A DNA stretch of 34,864 nucleotides from Myxococcota bacterium (GTDB lineage: Bacteria; Myxococcota_A; UBA796; UBA9615; JAKLKC01): NCBI GenBank assembly GCA_023150875.1, contig JAKLKC010000064.1, forward strand, positions 1-34,864, written 5' to 3'. The notes under the pieces are model-generated. The model worked only from the letters and a program-made list of their open reading frames with translations, made no database searches and was not told the origin of the DNA. Below are positions 24,416 through 34,688 of the stretch, in pieces. Made by a program: the position numbers and the translations under genes. Position 1 is the first letter of the stretch; each line of letters begins with the position of its first letter.

Positions 24416-24476
24416 AGGCCCCCCTCCCCTGCCTCCTCCCCGCCGTTTCCCCGTCCCCGGCTCCGCCGCGCCGCCT

Positions 24477-24493
24477 CTGTAAACAATTTACAG
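24477..24493. promoter_or_regulatory. AT-rich palindrome, possible operator
   Basis: CTGTAAACAATTTACAG: perfect 7-bp arms around CAA. AT-rich dyads are rare in this genome, so it looks like a repressor site. It lies 62 bp after the SDR stop and 225 bp before the -35 of the fusion gene. No T tract follows, so a terminator is less likely. Confidence 0.45.
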
Positions 24494-24701
24494 GCGGGTG
24501 TTCGTATGTCCGTCCCCCGCCGAACGCTTCGGGGCGCCCGCCCCGCCGCCCGCCAGAGACCGACGCCGCGCCACCCCATCCACGCTGACAGTGCGCTACA
24601 ACACCAACAAAAACAAGCACATACGACCATGCGCCGAATGCGGCAACAACTACCATGCGCCAATGCTGGCGTACCATGTGGGATTTTTCCGGCGTCCTGT
24701 G

Positions 24702-24731
24702 TTGACGGTCTTTACCAGGGCCCGGTACTTT
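24702..24731 (+). promoter_or_regulatory. Candidate promoter of the MraZ-ParB fusion gene
   Basis: TTGACG (24702-24707), an 18-bp spacer and TACTTT (24726-24731). The predicted start is near 24738, so the ATG at 24736 would not be on the transcript. This supports the GTG at 24793 as the real start, with a leader of about 55 nt. Confidence 0.55.
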
Positions 24732-24792
24732 TCCCATGCCGGGTGGCCGTCCCCAGGAAGGGCGGCCCGGAGCGGCCGAGGAGGATCCCGAC

Positions 24793-25932
24793 GTGGGCAA
24801 GCTCAACAGGCGCGTGAAGTTCATCGCGAAGGAGCGGCGGCTGAGCATCCCCGCCGAGTTCCTCCACGAGCACTCCATCCAGCGGGGGGACGCGATCCAC
24901 CTCGCCGCCCGGGGCAACACCCTCTTCGCCTTCCCGGTCCGGTCCTGGGAGGGGTACCAGGGCCTCGCCCGGCAGCTCGGGCGGTGGTTCCCCGACGACC
25001 GGCACCCCTTCTTCGCCCTCTTCGATGACGCGGCGCGGGTCACCCTGGGGAGCCAGGACCGGGTGGTGCTCCCCAGGGACTTCCCTTTCCACCCCAAGGA
25101 GACCATCCGCCTCCACTGGGAGATGGTGGACGGCTTCCTCCACCTCGAGGCCGAGAACGGGCGGGAGCCGGAGGCCCCTCCCCTCGCCCGCGGACCGGGC
25201 CAGACGAGCCTGATGGACTTCCTGCCCACCCCCGCCCCCTCGCCGGCGGCCCGGCCCACCTTCGATCGCCGCGCCGCCGAGCGGTCCCTGACCGAACGTG
25301 TGCCCATCGAGGCCGTCGACTTCCGGGACCGGACCTTCGCCGAGAAGACCCCGATCCCCACGGACTCCCTGGTGCGCTCGGTGCGCCTGGAGGGGATCCG
25401 CCGTCCCCTGGTGCTGCTGGCCCGGGACGACGGGACCTACCAGGTCATCGACGGGTTCCGGCGCCTGGCCGCGGCGCGCCAGCTCAAGGTCGCCCAGGTC
25501 CCCGCCGTCGTCTGGCGCGGCCTCGACTTCGACGCCTGCCTGCGCCTGAAGCTCCTCGAGGCCACCGAGGAGACCTCGGAGGCCCCCACCCTCCGGCGCC
25601 TGCGCTCCACCCTGAAGCTCCACGAGGGGCAGGTGGACCTCCAGGAGATCGAGAAGATCACCGGTCGGCGCAAGCGGACCCTCCAGCGGTACCTGCGGGT
25701 GGCCGCCGATCCCCTCCTCCGGGAGGCCATCGAGAAGGGGCGCCTCTCCATCTTCAAGGCCGAGGAGATCCTGAAGGCCGGCGTCGATCCCGAGACCGCC
25801 CTGCGAAAGCGGATGACCGTGAAGGAGATCCGCGCCCAGTCCCACCGCCCCGCCCCGTCCCGCCGCGCCCGCCGCCGCTCCGTGACCCCCCGCCGACGCG
25901 GCGGCCGGGGGTCGTCGACCATCCCCGGCTGA
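24793..25932 (+). CDS. MraZ/AbrB-like domain fused to a ParB-type DNA-binding protein
   Basis: A 379-residue protein with an unusual domain order. Residues ~8-120 resemble MraZ, with two AbrB-like halves: RRVKFIAKERRLSIPAEF and ARVTLGSQDRVVLPRDF, joined by a helix (SWEGYQGLARQLGRWF). Residues ~166-245 form a ParB/Srx-like domain: ERVPIEAVDFRDRTF, EGIRRPLVLL, and the box VIDGFRRLAAAR (218-229). A central helix-turn-helix-like region (~265-335) follows, with IEKITGRRKRTLQRYLRVA and EAIEKGRLSIFKAEEI. The C-terminus is strongly basic (SRRARRRSVTPRRRGGRG). The GTG at 24793 has GAGGAGGA 7-8 nt upstream; an ATG at 24736 is the alternative. No ParA gene is adjacent. Function is inferred as sequence-specific DNA binding, in transcription or chromosome organisation. 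Confidence 0.82.
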   Translation: MGKLNRRVKFIAKERRLSIPAEFLHEHSIQRGDAIHLAARGNTLFAFPVRSWEGYQGLARQLGRWFPDDRHPFFALFDDAARVTLGSQDRVVLPRDFPFHPKETIRLHWEMVDGFLHLEAENGREPEAPPLARGPGQTSLMDFLPTPAPSPAARPTFDRRAAERSLTERVPIEAVDFRDRTFAEKTPIPTDSLVRSVRLEGIRRPLVLLARDDGTYQVIDGFRRLAAARQLKVAQVPAVVWRGLDFDACLRLKLLEATEETSEAPTLRRLRSTLKLHEGQVDLQEIEKITGRRKRTLQRYLRVAADPLLREAIEKGRLSIFKAEEILKAGVDPETALRKRMTVKEIRAQSHRPAPSRRARRRSVTPRRRGGRGSSTIPG

Positions 25933-26038
25933 AGTCCTCCCGCCTCCTCCCCGCCCCGAGGGCGCCCGCGGCCCCAGGAGACCCGGATCCCCGGGGTTGG
26001 GGGTGACCCTCCCCTCCTGCCGCCCCCGGACCTCCAAG

Positions 26039-26077
26039 GGGTTTTCCACATCCTGTGGATAACCCTGCTTGTCCACA
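26039..26077. promoter_or_regulatory. Cluster of three DnaA boxes
   Basis: TTTTCCACA (26042-26050) and TGTGGATAA (26054-26062, the exact complement of the consensus TTATCCACA) form a 12-bp inverted pair with one mismatch around TCC (GGGTTTTCCACA / TGTGGATAACCC). A third box, TTGTCCACA (26069-26077), has one mismatch. CCTGTGGA and TCCACAGG can also pair. The cluster lies between the stops of the ParB fusion gene and coaD, 107 bp past the former. DnaA binding is inferred from the consensus. Confidence 0.65.
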
Positions 26078-26205
26078 GGCCCGCGGACTCGGAACAAATC
26101 CGGAACCTGTACGGGATCTCTACGGCCGGAGCGCGGCGGGACGCCCGGGTGGGCGGGACGCGGGGTGGGGGCCGGGAGCGGTGCGCGGAGGCCGGGGACC
26201 CGGGA

Positions 26206-26697
26206 TCAGCGCTCGGCGAGGCGGCGGTGCAGGCGGGCGAGGACGGAGGGGGCGACCATCTGGGAGACGTCGCCCCCCAGGGACGCGACCTCCCGCACCA
26301 TCCGGCTGCTCACGAAGAACCAGTCGGCGTCGGTCATCATGAAGAGGGTGTCCACCTCGGGGGCCAGCTTGCGGTTCATCCCCGCCATCTGGAGCTCGAA
26401 CTCGAAGTCCTGGACCGCCCGGAGGCCACGGACGATCGTCCGGGCGCCGCGGGCGCGCACGTAGTCCACCAGGAGGCCGTCGAACTGGTCCACGTCGAGG
26501 TTCGGGTGGTCGCCGACGCTCTCCCGGATCATCTCCATCCGCTCGGCGGGGGTGAAGAGTGAGCGCTTCTCGGGGTTGCCGACCACCGCGACCAACACGC
26601 GATCGAAGGCCGCCAACGCGCGGGCGATCACGTTGACGTGCCCCAGGTGGGGCGGGTCGAACGACCCGGGGTAGATCGCCAGCCTGCCTTCAGCCAT
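26206..26697 (-). CDS. coaD: Phosphopantetheine adenylyltransferase
   Basis: Transfers AMP from ATP to 4'-phosphopantetheine, the penultimate step of coenzyme A synthesis, in the cytoplasm. The 163-residue protein is full length. The nucleotidyltransferase signature is YPGSFDPPHLGHVNVI with HLGH at 17-20. TIVRGLRAVQDFEFELQMA (~87-105) binds substrate, and FVSSRMVREVA (~128-138) is the second ATP motif (ISSTxVRE in relatives). The ATG at 26697 lies within the last codons of rsmD (8-base overlap), the common rsmD-coaD arrangement, so translation is probably coupled. No oddity is seen. Confidence 0.96.
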   Translation of the reverse strand: MAEGRLAIYPGSFDPPHLGHVNVIARALAAFDRVLVAVVGNPEKRSLFTPAERMEMIRESVGDHPNLDVDQFDGLLVDYVRARGARTIVRGLRAVQDFEFELQMAGMNRKLAPEVDTLFMMTDADWFFVSSRMVREVASLGGDVSQMVAPSVLARLHRRLAER

Positions 26698-27292
26698 CGG
26701 GGCTCTCCTCTACGGTGCCATCGACCTTCGCCGACTCCCGCTGCGCATAGAACGTCACCCGCGTCCCTCCGTACCGGCGCTCGTCGACCCTCACCAGAGC
26801 CCCCTCCCCTTCCGGGAGGTCCTCGCGGGCGGAGTGCTCCACCACCAGGCGGGCGCCGGGGGACAGGACCTCGCCGCCGGCCAGCCAGCCCGGCACCCGG
26901 GGTGCCAGGCCAGCGTCGTAGGGCGGATCGGCGAAGACCAGGTCGAACCGGGCCCCCCGCCGGCCCAGGTCGCGGAGCGCGGCGGCGACGTCGTCCTGGA
27001 CCACTCGCCAGCTCCCCGGTGGCAGCAGCGCGCGGGCGTTGTCCGTCAGGGCGCGGGCGGCCGTCCGGTCCTTCTCGACGAAGACCGCCTCCATGCCGCC
27101 GCGGCCCACCGCCTCGATGCCGAAGGCGCCGAGGCCGGCGAACAGGTCCAGGACCCGCAGGCCGTCGAGCCGCTGCCCCAGGATGTCGAAGATGGACTTC
27201 CGGACCCGGGACCGGGTGGGACGGCGATCGGGGCCGGCGGGGCCGACCAGCTTGCGCTTGCCGAAGGCGTGGCCGTGGATGCGGAGGACCAT
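26690..27292 (-). CDS. rsmD: 16S rRNA (guanine-966 N2)-methyltransferase
   Basis: Methylates N2 of G966 in helix 31 of 16S rRNA using S-adenosylmethionine. The 200-residue protein shows the family start LRIHGHAFGKRKL and the RPTRSRVRKSIFDIL segment. The SAM site is RVLDLFAGLGAFGIEAVGRG (~46-65), and the catalytic motif is FADPPYD (~120-126). The ATG at 27292 is 14 nt downstream of the stop of the large lamin-tail protein gene, so read-through transcription from that gene is possible. It overlaps coaD by 8 bases. The product is of typical length (E. coli RsmD is 198 residues). Confidence 0.94.
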   Translation of the reverse strand: MVLRIHGHAFGKRKLVGPAGPDRRPTRSRVRKSIFDILGQRLDGLRVLDLFAGLGAFGIEAVGRGGMEAVFVEKDRTAARALTDNARALLPPGSWRVVQDDVAAALRDLGRRGARFDLVFADPPYDAGLAPRVPGWLAGGEVLSPGARLVVEHSAREDLPEGEGALVRVDERRYGGTRVTFYAQRESAKVDGTVEESPDG

Positions 27293-27306: not shown

Positions 27307-30300
27307 TCATCCCCTCCGCCGGTGGGCGGCGGCGAGGAGGGCGAGGGCGATCCAGGCCACCGTGGCCCGCTCCGCCCGCTGGGGGGTCGCGTCGCAGCCG
27401 CAGCCTTCGGGCGCGGCCGCACCGCCGCCGCCGCCGCAGTCCGAGTCTACGCCGTCGAGCTTGCTGTCGCAGTCGTTGTCCACCATGTCGTCGCACAGCT
27501 CACCCGCCGCCGGCGAGACCGCGGCGTTGGTGTCGTCGCAGTCCTGGCCTCCCGCGGCGGATCCACCCCAGCCGTCCCCGTCCACGTCCGTCAGGTCGAC
27601 GCCGTCGCAGTCCTCGTCGCTCCCGTTGTAGGGGACCTCGTAGGCCCCCGGGTGGACCTCCGCGTCGTTGTCGTTGCAGTCCGCGTCCAGGCAGGTGTCG
27701 TACCCGTCGCCGTCCCGGTCCTGGGGGTGCTCGTTCGGGTTGTTGGGATTGGTGCCGCAGGCGGTCTCGTCGTCGTCGGACCAGCCGTCGCCGTCGGAGT
27801 CCGCCGGAGCCTCCAGCTCGTCGCAGATCCCGTTGGCGTCGGTGTCGGTGGGGAGGTCGGCCGGGTTCCCGGGGTCCGTGCCGCACTCCACCTCGTCCGC
27901 GTCCGTCCATCCGTCCCCGTCGTCGTCGTCGTCCTGGTCGTTGCACACGCCGTCCCCGTCGGGATCCCCCGAGGGGTTGGCGCCGTCGCACAGATCGGTG
28001 GCGTCACAGATCCCGTCCCCGTCGAGGTCCTCGCCGTCGTCCAGGGGGTCGTCGGAACCGGATCCCGAGCAGTCGTCGCAGCCGTCGTTGTCCGAGTCGT
28101 TGCACGCGAAGGGATCGGTGTCGTCGGAGTCGTCCTGGCAGGCGTGGGCCGGCCAGGTCGGGTCCCCGGCTCCGTCGCCGTCGGCGTCGAAGCAGGCGTC
28201 GCCCGCGTCGCACACGCCGTCCAGGTCGAGGTCCTCGTCGAGGTTCCCGTCCCCGGGCGTGCCCGCGTCGCCGCAGCCGGCGGGGATGGGCGCGGTGCTG
28301 GGGCACCAGGCCGCCGGGGAGTCGTTCCCCGCCGCGTCGGTGCCCGGGGCGGCCGCCAGGCTGCGCCCGTCGGAGAAGGGCCAGCCCGCGGCCACGTCCC
28401 ACGCCACGCCGTCCACGAGGACGCCGGAGGGGTCCAGGACCTCCACCGAGCCCGCGCCGTCGGCGAGGGAGAGGCCGCTCCACTCCGCATCGCAGGTCAC
28501 GCCTCCGTTGGCGGCGGGACGGTCGTCGGCGCAGACCACGACGCTGCCCCCTGCCGGGAGGGTCAGGTCCCCGGAGATCGTCCAGGTCGCGCCGGTCTGG
28601 ATGCGGATGCTCCAGTAGGACAGCAGCAGGTCGTCCACCCGGTTCGAGGTCAGCTCGAGCCACTCCCCTTGGACCGACGAGGAGCAGCCGGGGCGGAGCA
28701 TCATCTCCGTGACCACGACGTCCCCGGCGACCGCGGGCGAGCCCTCGAAGAGGCACGCCTCCGAGCAGCCGTCCCCGGAGACCGTCCCGCCGTCGTCGCA
28801 GTCCTCGCCCGGGGCGACCTCGCCGTCGCCGCAGACCGTCGCGTCGTTGGCGTCGCAGGTGCCGTCCCCGTCCGCGTCCGCGGGTACGGACAGGGGATCG
28901 CGGGGATCGGTGCCGCAGGACGCCTCCAGCACGTCGCTCCAGAGGTCGTCGTCGTCGTCGTCGTCCAGGTTGTCGCAGGTCCCGTCGAGGTCCGTGTCCC
29001 CGCTGGCGTCCAAGCCTTCGCAGGCGTCCAGGGCGTCGCAGAGCCCGTCCCCGTCGCCGTCCCCAGGGACCGAGAAGGGGTCGCCGGAGTCGGTGCCGCA
29101 GGTCGCCTCCTCCGGGTCGGTCCACCCATCGTCGTCGTCGTCGGAGTCCAGGTTGTCGCAGGTCCCGTCGAGGTCCGTGTCCCCGCTGGCGTCCAGGCCG
29201 TCGCAGGCGTCCAGGGCGTCGCACGTCCCATCGGAGTCCGTGTCGTCGGGGACCGAGAGGACGTCGTCGGGATCGGCCCCGCAGCTCGCCTCGGCGACGT
29301 CGCTCCACCCGTCGTCGTCATCGTCGCCGTCGAGGTTGTCGCAGATCCCGTCCAGGTCGACGTCGCCGCTGGCGTCCAGGCCGTAGCAGGTGTCCAGCGC
29401 GTCGCACACGCCGTCGGCGTCCTCGTCGCCGGGGACCGAGGCGCCCGCGTCGGGATCGGTCCCGCAGGTCGCCTCGGCGAGGTCGGACCACCCGTCCCCG
29501 TCGTCGTCGGGGTCCAGGTTGTCGCAGGTCCCGTCCAGGTCCGCGTCTCCGCTGGAGTCCAGGCCGTCGCAGAGGTCCCCCGCGTCGCAGAGTCCGTCTC
29601 CGTCGGCGTCCGGACCGTCCGCACGGGGGTCGTCGACGCCGGAGGCGCAGTCGTCGCATCCGTCGGCGTCCGCGTCGTGGCAGACGAAGGGATCGGAGTC
29701 GTCGGTGTCCGCCCGGCATGCCCCGGGCACCAGCGCCGTGCCCGACAGGTCCCCGTCGGCGTCGATGCACTCGTCGGTGGCGTCGCAGACCCCGTCCCCG
29801 TCCCGGTCGACGTCGGCGTTGGCGAAGCCGGGGCTCCCGAGGTCGCCACAGCCCCCCGGGATGGGATCGAGGGACGCGCACCAGGCCGCCGCGGCGTCGT
29901 TCGAGGCGGCGTCGTGGGCGGAATCCCGGAGGGCGAAGGAGGCGGCGGGAGCGATGGGCCACGGGCCCCCGGTCCACGAGACCTCGTCGACCAGGTCACC
30001 GGACCCGTCGAGCATCGAGATCCGGTCGGTGGAGTCGAGGAAGGGGCCGGGGAAGGTGTGGTCGCACGCCACTCCCCCGTTGAGCAGGGGATCGGCGTCG
30101 CCGCAGAGCACCACCCGCGCGCCGGGGGCCACGTAGACGCCGGAGATCTCCGTGGACTCGCCCCCGCTCACCGCCTGCCATCCCGTCAGGTCGACGGTGC
30201 TGGCGGTGGCGTTGTAGACCTCGAACCACTCGCCGCGGGCGTCGTCGCTGCAGCTCGGCGCGAGCATCACCTCGGAGATCACCAGGTCGCCCACCCCCGC

Positions 30301-30776: not shown

Positions 30777-33700
30777 ATGCCCCGCTGCACCCACCCCGTC
30801 ATCGCCGCCGCGGCCTTGCTGACCGCGTCGATCCTCCGCCCCCTCCCCGCCGCCGCCCTGGGCGACGACGTGCTGATCTACGACCCCTCGCTCCTCGGCG
30901 GCGCGGGGAGCTGGACGAACCTGAGGGACACCTACACGGGCCTGGGAGTCACCAGCGACGTCGTGAACCTGGTGCCCGGCGACCTGTCCGCCTACCGGCT
31001 GATCTACGTCGTCGCACCCGGCGGGACGCTGACGGCGCTGGAGAAGGCCCAGCTCTCCGCCTTCGTCGACGACGGGGGGCGGATCGTGGCGGTGGGCGAG
31101 TTCGCCGGTCTGGGCGCGCTCAACGACAACGTCAACGACCTCCTGGCCGCCCTCGGGGTCGAGAGCCGCATCGACGACGCCTCCCTCAACGCCACGTGCA
31201 CGAACGGGCTCGGCCAGCCAGGCAACGACATCACCTACAACGTCGATACCTTCGCCGGGGGGAACCACTCGGTGGTGGACGCCGGCCCCACCGCCGTGCC
31301 CCTGGTGCGGATGGTGAGCGCGGACTGCCCGAGCGGCTGCGACTACATGGTGGTCGAGCAGCCGCCGGGGGCGCCGGACGCCCCGGGGGGAGAGGTGATC
31401 GTCGTGGGCGACACCGACGGCTTCAAGGGCTGCGTCGGCGGCGACAACGCCCAGCTCTGGGAGAACCTCTGGGACTACGTGCCCGGCTTCGACTGCGACG
31501 CGGACAACGACGGGTGGATCGGCGAGGCGTGCGGGGGGCCGGACTGCGACGACGCCGACTACAACACCAGCCCGGGACAGGACGTGTTCACCGGGGGCTA
31601 CTGCAGCGGGGACCACGACTGCAACGGCTTCACCGACTCCGACAACGACGGCGACGGGGCCGTGAGGACGCTGGTCTGCGGGGGGGACGACTGCAACGAC
31701 CTCGACCCTTCCCTCAACCCCTCGGCTTACGAGACCGTGGACTCCGGGACCTGCTCGGACGGGATCGACAACGACTGCGACGGCGCCACCGACTCCGCCG
31801 AGGACGAGTGCGTCGAGCTGTGCTCGGGTGTCCGCTCCAACGACCTGGTGTCCTCCTTCGACCGCCTGGACATCTCCGACGTCGGGACGGTCACCAACCT
31901 CGACGACGAGGAGTCGGTCACCTTCTCCCTGCCCTTCTCGTTCCGCTTCTACAACACCACCTACCCCGCCGGCACCACGCTGACCGTGACCGACAACGGG
32001 GTGCTGGTCTTCGACGGGCGGGTGCCGCTGAAGGCAGACCTGGTCCCGGGCGAGGGGATGGGGGTCAACGCCTTCCCCGAGAACGAGGGATTCGGCCGTT
32101 TCGCCGCCCCGTGGCTCGCCGACTGGGACGGCGCGACCGTCCATCGCTACCGGGACACGTCCGGCTGCAACGAGAAGTTCATCGTCCAGTGGGACGCACG
32201 CCACGTCTCGGGGGCGGGGCCCTACTCCTTCCAGCTCGTGCTCCAGGCCACCCGGAACTTCGTGTACTTCCGCTGGCTCGACGCCTCCGCCGGCTCCCCC
32301 GACGTCGACGGGGGCGGCAACGCGGTGTACGGCTCCTACCAGAGGATCCAGACTGGGGTGGCCTGGGAAGGGCTCTCGGGCGGACTCTACGATGGCGCCG
32401 AGCTGCTGGTGACCCGCACCACCGACCTCTCCCCCGCGGGGACGCCCTACTGCACGACGATCGAGGTGTGCGACGACGGGATCGACAACGACGGGGACTG
32501 CGACGTGGACGCCGACGACGCGGAGCAGCCCGATCCCGACGGGGATGGCCACGCCTTCGAGTGCGATACCTGCGAGGACGGCGACGGGGACCTCTACGGC
32601 ACCGACGGCGGCGCCGGGACCTGCCTGGGCCCGGACTGCGACGACGGGGACGGCGCGGTCCACCCGGGGGCGGCCGAGGTGTGCAACGGCGTCGACGAGG
32701 ACTGCGATGGCACCGTGGACGACGGGTTCGACCTCGACGCGGACGGCTACACCACCTGCGAGGGGGACTGCGACGACGCCGATCCCTCCCGCCACCCCGG
32801 CGCCGCCGAGGCGTGCGACGGCATCGACGGGGACTGCGACGGAGTCGTGCCCGCGAGCGAGGCCGACGGGGACGGCGACGGCTTCCGTCCCTGCGAGGGG
32901 GACTGCGACGACGGGGATCCCGCGGTGAGCCCCGGGGCCGCCGAGGCGTGCAACGGTGTGGACGACGACTGCGACGGCCTCCTCCCTGCGGACGAAGTCG
33001 ACGGGGACGGAGACGGGCACATCGCATGCGCCGAGTGCGACGACGCCGATCCCGCCATCGGCCCCGGCGGCGTCGAGGTCTGCGACGGGGCCGACAACGA
33101 TTGCGACCCCACCACCGACGAGAACGTCGACGGCGACGGCGACGGGATCTCCATCTGCGACGGGGACTGCGACGACAGCGATCCCACCTACTCCCCCGGA
33201 GCCGAGGACTTCTGCGGGGACGGGCAGGACAACAACTGCGACGGCTTCCCCGACGACTTCGCGGACGGTGACGGCGACGGCTCCATGGTCTGCGCGGGGG
33301 ACTGCGACGACGCCGATCCCGCCGTGAACCCCGACGCCGTGGAGGTGTGCGACGGGATCGACAACGACTGCGATGACGCCACGGACGAGGGGTTCGACGA
33401 GGACGGCGACGGCTTCACCACCTGCGCGGGGGACTGTGACGACGCCGATCCCGACGTGATGCCCGGCACCGGGGAGACGTGCGGCAACGGCATCGACGAC
33501 GACTGCAACGGGCTGGTGGACGAGGACACCGACAACGACCTCGACGGCGTCACCACGTGCGCGGGGGACTGTGACGACGCCGATCCCGACGTCAACCCCG
33601 CCCGCCCCGACGGGGACTGCGACGGGGTCGACGACGACTGCGACGGGATCGCCGACGACGACGCCGGGGACGCGGACGGCGACGGCAGCTTCGCGTGCGC

Positions 33701-34688
33701 CGACTGCGACGACGAGGACCCCACCGCCCACCCCGGGGCTGAGGAGGTGTGTGGCGACGGGGTGGACAACGACTGCGACGGGGTGGCGGACGTCGCCACC
33801 GACCACGACGGGGACGGGTACGCGTCCTGCGGGGACTGCAACGACGAGGACGCCAACTGGCATCCCCACGCCGACGAGTTGTGCGACGGGCTGGACAACG
33901 ACTGCGACGGCGCCGTGCCGGGGGACGAGTCCGACCACGACGGCGACGGCTTCCGGGAGTGCGAGGAGTGCAACGACGACGACGCCCTCACCTACCCCGG
34001 GGCGGAGGAGATCTGCGACGGGCGCGACAACGACTGCGACGACGCGCTTCCCGAGCCGGAGCAGGTGGACGAGGACCAGGACGGGTCCCCCTTCTGCGAG
34101 GACTGCGACGACACGGATCCCGTCAACGCCCCCGGGAACGAGGAGATCTGCGACGGCTTCGACAACGACTGCGACGGAGAGGTCGACGAGGACGAGGACG
34201 TGGACGGCGACGGCTACACGCCCTGCCAGGGCGACTGCGCCGACGGCGACGCCTCGCGCCACCCCGGGGCCTCGGAGGTCTGCGACGGGAAGGACAACGA
34301 CTGCGACGGGTCGGTGCCCTCGGACGAGGTGGACGACGACAACGACGGCTTCCGTGCCTGCGACGACTGCGACGACTCCAACTCGGCGGTCAACGTGGAC
34401 GCCGACGGGGACGGGTTCACCGGCTGCGACGGCGACTGTGACGACCGGGACGACGACGTGCACCCCGGCGCCGTCGAGGACTGCACCGACGGCATCGACA
34501 ACGACTGCGACGACCTGATCGACGCCCTGGACGAGGACTGCATCACGCCCGAGGAGCTGCACGACTGGTGGGTGGGGGGCGCCAGCGGCTGCGGCTGCGG
34601 CGCCGCGCCGGTGGGGGCGCCGGCCTCGTCCGGAGCCTGGGCGGTCCTGGGGGTCCTGGCGGCCTTCCGGCGGCGGCGGGGGCGCTGA
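30777..34688 (+). CDS. Large secreted protein with MopE-type metal-binding repeat array and MYXO-CTERM
   Basis: A 1303-residue predicted surface protein. The signal peptide is VIAAAALLTASILRPLPAAA (~8-27). Residues ~30-235 look like a Rossmann or flavodoxin-like domain (DDVLIYDPSLL, AYRLIYVVAPGG, DGGRIVAVGEFAG), similar to glutamine-amidotransferase-like folds. Two MopE-type repeats (~256-335) precede a beta-sandwich-like domain (~348-560: TFSLPFSFRFYNTTYPAG, TVTDNGVLVFDG, GRFAAPWLADWDG), of the type seen in nidogen-like surface proteins. From ~615 to ~1250 there are about 14 complete repeats of the form DCDDxDPxxxPGAxEVCDGxDNDCDG, plus one truncated copy. The tail is SGCGCGAAP, the helix AWAVLGVLAAF, then RRRRGR, a good MYXO-CTERM. 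The ATG at 30777 has AGGAGG 6 nt upstream; the ATG at 30762 has none. Copper binding is known for MopE of Methylococcus but only inferred here. Confidence 0.9.
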   Translation: MPRCTHPVIAAAALLTASILRPLPAAALGDDVLIYDPSLLGGAGSWTNLRDTYTGLGVTSDVVNLVPGDLSAYRLIYVVAPGGTLTALEKAQLSAFVDDGGRIVAVGEFAGLGALNDNVNDLLAALGVESRIDDASLNATCTNGLGQPGNDITYNVDTFAGGNHSVVDAGPTAVPLVRMVSADCPSGCDYMVVEQPPGAPDAPGGEVIVVGDTDGFKGCVGGDNAQLWENLWDYVPGFDCDADNDGWIGEACGGPDCDDADYNTSPGQDVFTGGYCSGDHDCNGFTDSDNDGDGAVRTLVCGGDDCNDLDPSLNPSAYETVDSGTCSDGIDNDCDGATDSAEDECVELCSGVRSNDLVSSFDRLDISDVGTVTNLDDEESVTFSLPFSFRFYNTTYPAGTTLTVTDNGVLVFDGRVPLKADLVPGEGMGVNAFPENEGFGRFAAPWLADWDGATVHRYRDTSGCNEKFIVQWDARHVSGAGPYSFQLVLQATRNFVYFRWLDASAGSPDVDGGGNAVYGSYQRIQTGVAWEGLSGGLYDGAELLVTRTTDLSPAGTPYCTTIEVCDDGIDNDGDCDVDADDAEQPDPDGDGHAFECDTCEDGDGDLYGTDGGAGTCLGPDCDDGDGAVHPGAAEVCNGVDEDCDGTVDDGFDLDADGYTTCEGDCDDADPSRHPGAAEACDGIDGDCDGVVPASEADGDGDGFRPCEGDCDDGDPAVSPGAAEACNGVDDDCDGLLPADEVDGDGDGHIACAECDDADPAIGPGGVEVCDGADNDCDPTTDENVDGDGDGISICDGDCDDSDPTYSPGAEDFCGDGQDNNCDGFPDDFADGDGDGSMVCAGDCDDADPAVNPDAVEVCDGIDNDCDDATDEGFDEDGDGFTTCAGDCDDADPDVMPGTGETCGNGIDDDCNGLVDEDTDNDLDGVTTCAGDCDDADPDVNPARPDGDCDGVDDDCDGIADDDAGDADGDGSFACADCDDEDPTAHPGAEEVCGDGVDNDCDGVADVATDHDGDGYASCGDCNDEDANWHPHADELCDGLDNDCDGAVPGDESDHDGDGFRECEECNDDDALTYPGAEEICDGRDNDCDDALPEPEQVDEDQDGSPFCEDCDDTDPVNAPGNEEICDGFDNDCDGEVDEDEDVDGDGYTPCQGDCADGDASRHPGASEVCDGKDNDCDGSVPSDEVDDDNDGFRACDDCDDSNSAVNVDADGDGFTGCDGDCDDRDDDVHPGAVEDCTDGIDNDCDDLIDALDEDCITPEELHDWWVGGASGCGCGAAPVGAPASSGAWAVLGVLAAFRRRRGR

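Follow-up and report, generated by a model that had tools for sequence, protein, structure and literature searches.

DnaA-box clusters located outside the replication origin are known from Bacillus subtilis and Escherichia coli (PMC5295017, PMC11317965). B. subtilis has several such clusters per chromosome, and removal of six DnaA-box clusters led to early initiation (PMC5295017). In E. coli, datA and DARS are DnaA-binding loci that lie away from oriC and contain high-affinity boxes (PMC5295017, PMC11317965); datA, to which older work assigned a titration role, carries five boxes and needs IHF (PMC5295017). E. coli DnaA was found in vivo mainly on two boxes 2 to 3 bp apart, nrdA and nrdD being among the targets; the DnaA regulon also includes polA, purH, and dnaA, among others, and the double boxes listed are all in tandem (PMC11317965).

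The locus described here is located on contig C141 of genome G000 (6.92 Mb, 180 contigs, 98% complete), the 34,864 nucleotides of which are referred to as the window. It is an ordinary element of a known kind, namely a non-oriC DnaA-box cluster; what is unusual is its location between convergent genes. Like the B. subtilis clusters, it groups boxes outside oriC, and, like datA and DARS, it would be a DnaA-binding locus away from oriC with high-affinity boxes, binding being predicted in the window. It differs from the B. subtilis clusters in consisting of three boxes that include an inverted pair, and from datA in having three boxes instead of five. The spacing of boxes 1 and 2 (3 bp) is that of the E. 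coli double boxes, but this close pair is tail-to-tail, whereas the pairs listed for E. coli are tandem, so that the spacing preference of E. coli DnaA may not apply to it. Tandem pairs of the E. coli type are present upstream of the ParB-family gene in relatives, and ribonucleotide reductase promoters, which are among the E. coli targets (PMC11317965), also carry boxes in relatives of the same order.

Results

A three-box cluster between convergent genes

The original prediction reported three DnaA boxes within 36 bp beside a ParB-family gene, two of the boxes forming an inverted pair with 3 bp in between, and all three were found at the positions given in Table 1. The raw number of box matches in the window is not unusual (four with at most one mismatch versus a shuffle mean of 2.05, with 10 of 100 shuffles reaching four), whereas their clustering is: three matches within 36 bp occurred in 0 of 2,000 dinucleotide-preserving shuffles of the window, as did two exact matches within 21 bp, in agreement with the claim that such a trio is unlikely by chance. 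In the whole genome (6,920,249 bases), TTWTNCACA has 10 exact matches (6 forward and 4 reverse), including 2 in this cluster, versus 6 for the same pattern read backwards. Single boxes therefore occur at close to the background rate, and it is the clustering alone that is remarkable. Exact TTATCCACA occurs three times in the genome, box 2 being one of these occurrences.

Table 1. Features of the cluster and of its surroundings (positions in the window)
Feature	Position	Strand	Description
Upstream region of ParB-family gene	24416-24792	+	AT-richest spot of window
ParB-family gene	24793-25932	+	MraZ-like N-terminal domain, ParB_N, and helix-turn-helix (Pfam PF02195, alignment, fold search)
Gap between convergent genes	25933-26205		273 bp, 74.7% GC; holds the cluster
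Imperfect palindrome	26039-26065		27 bp, GGGTTTTCCACA-TCC-TGTGGATAACCC; contains boxes 1 and 2
DnaA box 1	26042-26050	+	TTTTCCACA; 0 mismatches versus TTWTNCACA
Alternative stem	26052-26079		CCTGTGGA...TCCACAGG; between boxes 2 and 3
DnaA box 2	26054-26062	-	TTATCCACA; perfect consensus; tail-to-tail with box 1, gap of 3 bp
DnaA box 3	26069-26077	+	TTGTCCACA; 1 mismatch versus TTWTNCACA; head-to-head with box 2, gap of 6 bp
coaD	26206-26697	-	Pantetheine-phosphate adenylyltransferase (NCBIfam TIGR01510, 194 bits; cut-off 103)
rsmD	26690-27292	-	16S rRNA methyltransferase (NCBIfam TIGR00095, 131.5 bits; cut-off 117.5)

The sequence TCCACA-N0-30-TGTGGA is present at five places in the G000 genome (three for the reversed control), of which only the window site and C103:64690 have the longer tail-to-tail DnaA-box form; G000 thus contains only two inverted DnaA-box pairs. 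The second cluster (L007, C103:64524-64707) consists of TTGTCCACA followed by CTGTCCACA and TTATCCACA in tail-to-tail orientation with a gap of 3 bp; it lies in AT-rich DNA that precedes a TetR-family gene. The window site holds at least two close, near-consensus boxes beyond chance expectation and is intergenic and away from oriC, the latter being placed in G000 by gene context and not by skew; these are the features of a non-oriC cluster.

The coaD gene is transcribed toward the cluster, convergently with the ParB-family gene. The 25 called genes of the window, each searched with Pfam and/or NCBIfam profiles either as called or inside a longer open reading frame, gave no match to dnaA, dnaN, or gidA, as had been predicted, and Rfam detected no family at the gathering score between 24300 and 27400. 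Further along the window are two long repeat proteins, one with lamin-tail and bacterial TSP3 repeats (27307-30294) and one with 15 MopE-type metal-binding motifs (30777-34688).

In relatives G001, G003, and G004, all of the same order, the gene order is ParB-family, NUDIX, aminotransferase, coaD, and rsmD, and in G006 it is ParB-family, aminotransferase, and coaD; domain searches covered NUDIX and rsmD in G003 and the aminotransferase in all four, coaD having been located separately in these genomes and the other genes being assigned by sequence similarity. The distance from coaD to the ParB-family gene is 1.7 to 1.8 kb in these four genomes, with the aminotransferase gene in between, accompanied in three by the NUDIX-like gene. 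Neither the NUDIX nor the aminotransferase gene is present in the window, where the boxes occupy the corresponding junction. A tie of the boxes to coaD, and not to the ParB-family gene, was rejected, as no box cluster lies between the two genes in the relatives' loci examined.

The neighboring gene encodes a putative MraZ-ParB fusion

The ParB-family assignment of the adjoining gene was upheld by Pfam (ParB_N, 32.9 bits), and the predicted structure indicates that its product is an MraZ-ParB fusion. The MraZ-like domain spans approximately residues 5 to 122 with a pLDDT mostly above 70, in a whole-protein model of low confidence (pLDDT of 63 and pTM of 0.35). PDB profile searches matched ParB and Noc, and a fold search with the model matched ParB and MraZ. 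Orthologues of the fusion are present in the six same-order relatives examined (51 to 55% identity), and the GTG start at 24793 is kept, as MGKL, in 7 of 7 orthologues. Elsewhere in the class, G008 contains one weak, near-full-length relative (30% identity) with stops, and a plasmid search with the ParB-family protein as the query returned two weak partial matches. We recognized no published MraZ-ParB fusion in the excerpts available from the literature on MraZ with ParB.

Upstream of the gene, a TTGAC(A)-N-TTACCA promoter-like element is conserved in all seven genomes. The same region contains the palindrome CTGTAAACAATTTACAG at 24477-24493 in G000 and a ACAAGTATGT-type palindrome in relatives. 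A role of CTGTAAACAATTTACAG as a dispersed parS-like site was discarded: G000 and G004 have a single copy each, and the five other genomes have none at one mismatch. No DnaA box was detected at one mismatch in the upstream region of G000 (24416-24792). DnaA boxes do lie near the orthologue in relatives, there on the other, upstream side of the gene: tandem boxes with 2-bp gaps precede it in three of the five testable relatives, namely G002 (one mismatch in each box), G003, and G005 (one mismatch in the second box). G001 and G004, which belong to one genus, have no boxes upstream of the orthologue, and G006 was left out of this count as its contig begins too close to the gene.

Dispersed DnaA-box pairs in the order

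The search covered 58 genomes of the class, none of them, other than G000 itself, from the genus or family of G000. Tail-to-tail pairs (TNTCCACA-N0-30-TGTGGANA) gave 18 forward matches at 16 loci in six of the seven same-order genomes, versus 0 in all seven for the reversed-pattern control, and all 16 loci are outside called genes (coding density of 84 to 92% on six contigs). The compact form, with a gap of 0 to 5 bp, was found in six of seven same-order genomes (12 sites) versus 5 of the 51 others of the class (5 sites; Fisher P = 7e-5). Head-to-head pairs occur at five sites in five of the seven genomes (control, 0), four at known loci and one at the MinD-like locus of G003. For direct pairs, the census gave 41 matches (24 forward and 17 reverse) versus 16 for the reversed pattern; it is noisy, chiefly in G003, and its counts were therefore not used as enrichment. 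A perfect TATCCACAGCTGTGGATA pair also occurs in a genome from a different family of the class (L172, G035:C593:1807-1824), between mraZ-like and smpB-like genes, named from sequence.

Direct-pair loci without a pair at one mismatch (L142, L143, L147, L152, L157, and L162) were dropped, and those inside genes (L150 and L151) were left out; L153, with boxes just inside the start chosen by the gene caller, was kept, and L139, L140, L144, L145, L148, L154, L159, and L161 repeated other loci. A tabulation of 22 sites includes L160 and L163 and leaves out loci lacking between-genome recurrence (L141, L146, L149, L155, and, from the tail-to-tail census, L125). Direct-pair rows L164, L166 to L169, and those without a locus were also left out, except G003:C167 (via L179) and G003:C217 (via L039). 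We recognized no published account of this DnaA-box set in the excerpts available from the literature on DnaA-box pairs or clusters, DnaA with nrdJ or NrdR, and Myxococcus DnaA.

The pairs recur at the same genes, the flanking proteins being orthologous between genera, and in relatives they are mostly located upstream of genes. A histidine kinase gene followed by a MinD/ParA-like ATPase gene, with DnaA boxes in between, was found in six of six relatives (L126, L132, L134, L135, L158, and L188). Boxes accompany the class II ribonucleotide reductase gene in the five relatives in which this gene was found (it was not found in G006), a fabG-like gene in four (in G004 only via a neighbor in common with G001), a cysteine desulfurase gene (aminotransferase class V domain) in two, a MobA-like gene in two, and an HU gene in one. 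An NrdR-box-like sequence is present 3' of the reductase boxes in G001, G002, G004, and G005 (centered around CACCACAAYATCTNGTG, except in G002, which has a variant), which places the boxes of that gene in the promoter region. No box cluster was found upstream of the reductase homologue or of the cysteine desulfurase gene of G000, indicating that the set is smaller in this genome. Among the 22 tabulated sites, only that of the window was read as lying between convergent genes, and it may therefore not share the function of the others.

Discussion

Alternative explanations

An atypical oriC was among the roles originally proposed. The cluster adjoins a ParB-family gene, an AT-rich stretch (24551-24750) lies 1.3 kb off, and its boxes are closer to the consensus than those between dnaA and dnaN in G000, as might be expected of an atypical or second replication origin. 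However, dnaA was located on another contig (C125) in a canonical origin neighborhood, with dnaN-, recF-, and gyrB-like genes on one side and rnpA-, yidC-, parA-, and parB-like genes on the other (names read from sequence, except for DnaA, a profile match, and the ParB-like protein, a search match). In G002 and G003, the sign of the GC skew switches at dnaA, where degenerate DnaA boxes also cluster; the skew is not origin-like at the ParB-family locus of either genome, the cumulative skew being near its maximum, not its minimum, in G003 and the skew keeping one sign across 52 kb in G002. In G000 itself, the GC skew lacks the strength to locate the origin. Gene-strand bias and third-position skew were uninformative as well, the latter being set aside because it follows gene strand. 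The second cluster adjoins a long series of + strand genes on C103 (after 65 kb), which was considered as an origin and rejected, its left side being unmirrored and GC skew showing no turn. Ordinary chromosomal genes flank the window cluster, which is beside neither dnaA/dnaN nor gidA, and no AT-rich unwinding region adjoins the boxes in the GC-rich gap (Table 1). The cluster is thus probably not oriC, and an origin of an atypical or second kind appears very improbable. A bidirectional terminator would fit the location between convergent genes, the palindrome then accounting for the resemblance to DnaA boxes. The alternating hairpins that had been predicted both form on paper: the palindrome hairpin (26039-26065) reaches -16.5 kcal/mol on the + strand, on which 0 of 200 shuffles fold as well, and -15.0 kcal/mol on the - strand, and the alternative stem (26052-26079) reaches -16.1 kcal/mol on the + strand. 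The terminator drawn from them fared poorly. A scan at the cluster found no T tract after the stem, and the whole 273-bp gap folds no better than shuffles (z of -0.75). The box hairpin, although stable, is weaker than those of most convergent gaps: for the best 34-nt hairpins of 21 such gaps on three G000 contigs, the median is -22.7 kcal/mol and the cluster gap ranks 17th, with a best hairpin that starts at 25971 and is different from the box hairpin. Most comparable pairs in relatives precede genes, and the palindrome is imperfect exactly where boxes 1 (TTTT) and 2 (TTAT) are different DnaA-box versions. We regard a terminator as improbable, and as less likely than a DnaA reservoir or regulatory cluster.

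Chance would be compatible with the near-background rate of single boxes in the genome, but the absence of any comparable trio from 2,000 shuffles and the recurrence of the same kind of pair across the order leave it hardly credible. A functional tie to the MraZ-ParB gene, in which bound DnaA would affect the expression or activity of the gene, or the protein, much as boxes at the opposite end of the gene might in relatives, is unlikely, if less so than the preceding alternatives. Of the six genomes with sufficient sequence at the locus, four have boxes near the orthologue, on the upstream side in G002, G003, and G005 and on the downstream side in G000. Since G000 has only two inverted pairs, the landing of one of them beside one of approximately seven box-bearing gene families would be an unlikely coincidence, roughly estimated at below 1%. 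Against such a tie, the site is located 110 bp past the stop codon and faces the convergent gene, and boxes are lacking upstream of the gene in G000 (at one mismatch), G001, and G004.

A candidate DnaA reservoir

Our preferred reading, with a probability of approximately 0.6, is that the cluster is a compact DnaA site outside oriC, likely of high affinity, which belongs to the dispersed set of the order and would most likely serve as a reservoir or for titration. Of the options raised by the original prediction, a genuine DnaA-box cluster acting as a titration site or a DnaA-controlled region is the one that the sequence comparisons favor. G000 encodes a DnaA with a complete, canonical domain IV (Pfam Bac_DnaA_C, 107.7 bits), whose GGRDHSTV motif aligns with GGRDHTTV of chain 1j1v, presumably domain IV of E. 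coli DnaA. We infer that DnaA binds the boxes and is titrated there. The tail-to-tail pair (boxes 1 and 2) would hold two DnaA molecules, and box 3 would take up one more. The pairs of the relatives, mostly in promoter regions, suggest that DnaA may act there as a transcription regulator. At the window site, which lies between convergent genes, a promoter role is unlikely, and no called gene starts from the gap, so that titration would be the likeliest consequence, DnaA being held in a reservoir rather than operating a promoter switch. DnaA could also form a roadblock to convergent transcription.

To our knowledge, few bacteria have had their DnaA regulon or titration loci mapped. For a deltaproteobacterial order represented here by metagenome assemblies only, the recurrence of pairs at the same genes in several genera provides a concrete candidate DnaA regulon, which includes ribonucleotide reductase, as in E. 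coli. It is a doubtful proposition that DnaA directly controls an orphan partition-like pair (the MinD/ParA-like ATPase and the MraZ-ParB fusion) together with ribonucleotide reductase in the order. If it did, the start of replication would be linked to a second system resembling segregation or division machinery, and tail-to-tail DnaA-box pairs would constitute a type of binding unit that has not been described for E. coli. The convergent position of the window site offers a natural test of titration versus promoter control, and the cluster is a pointer to an order-wide DnaA regulon.
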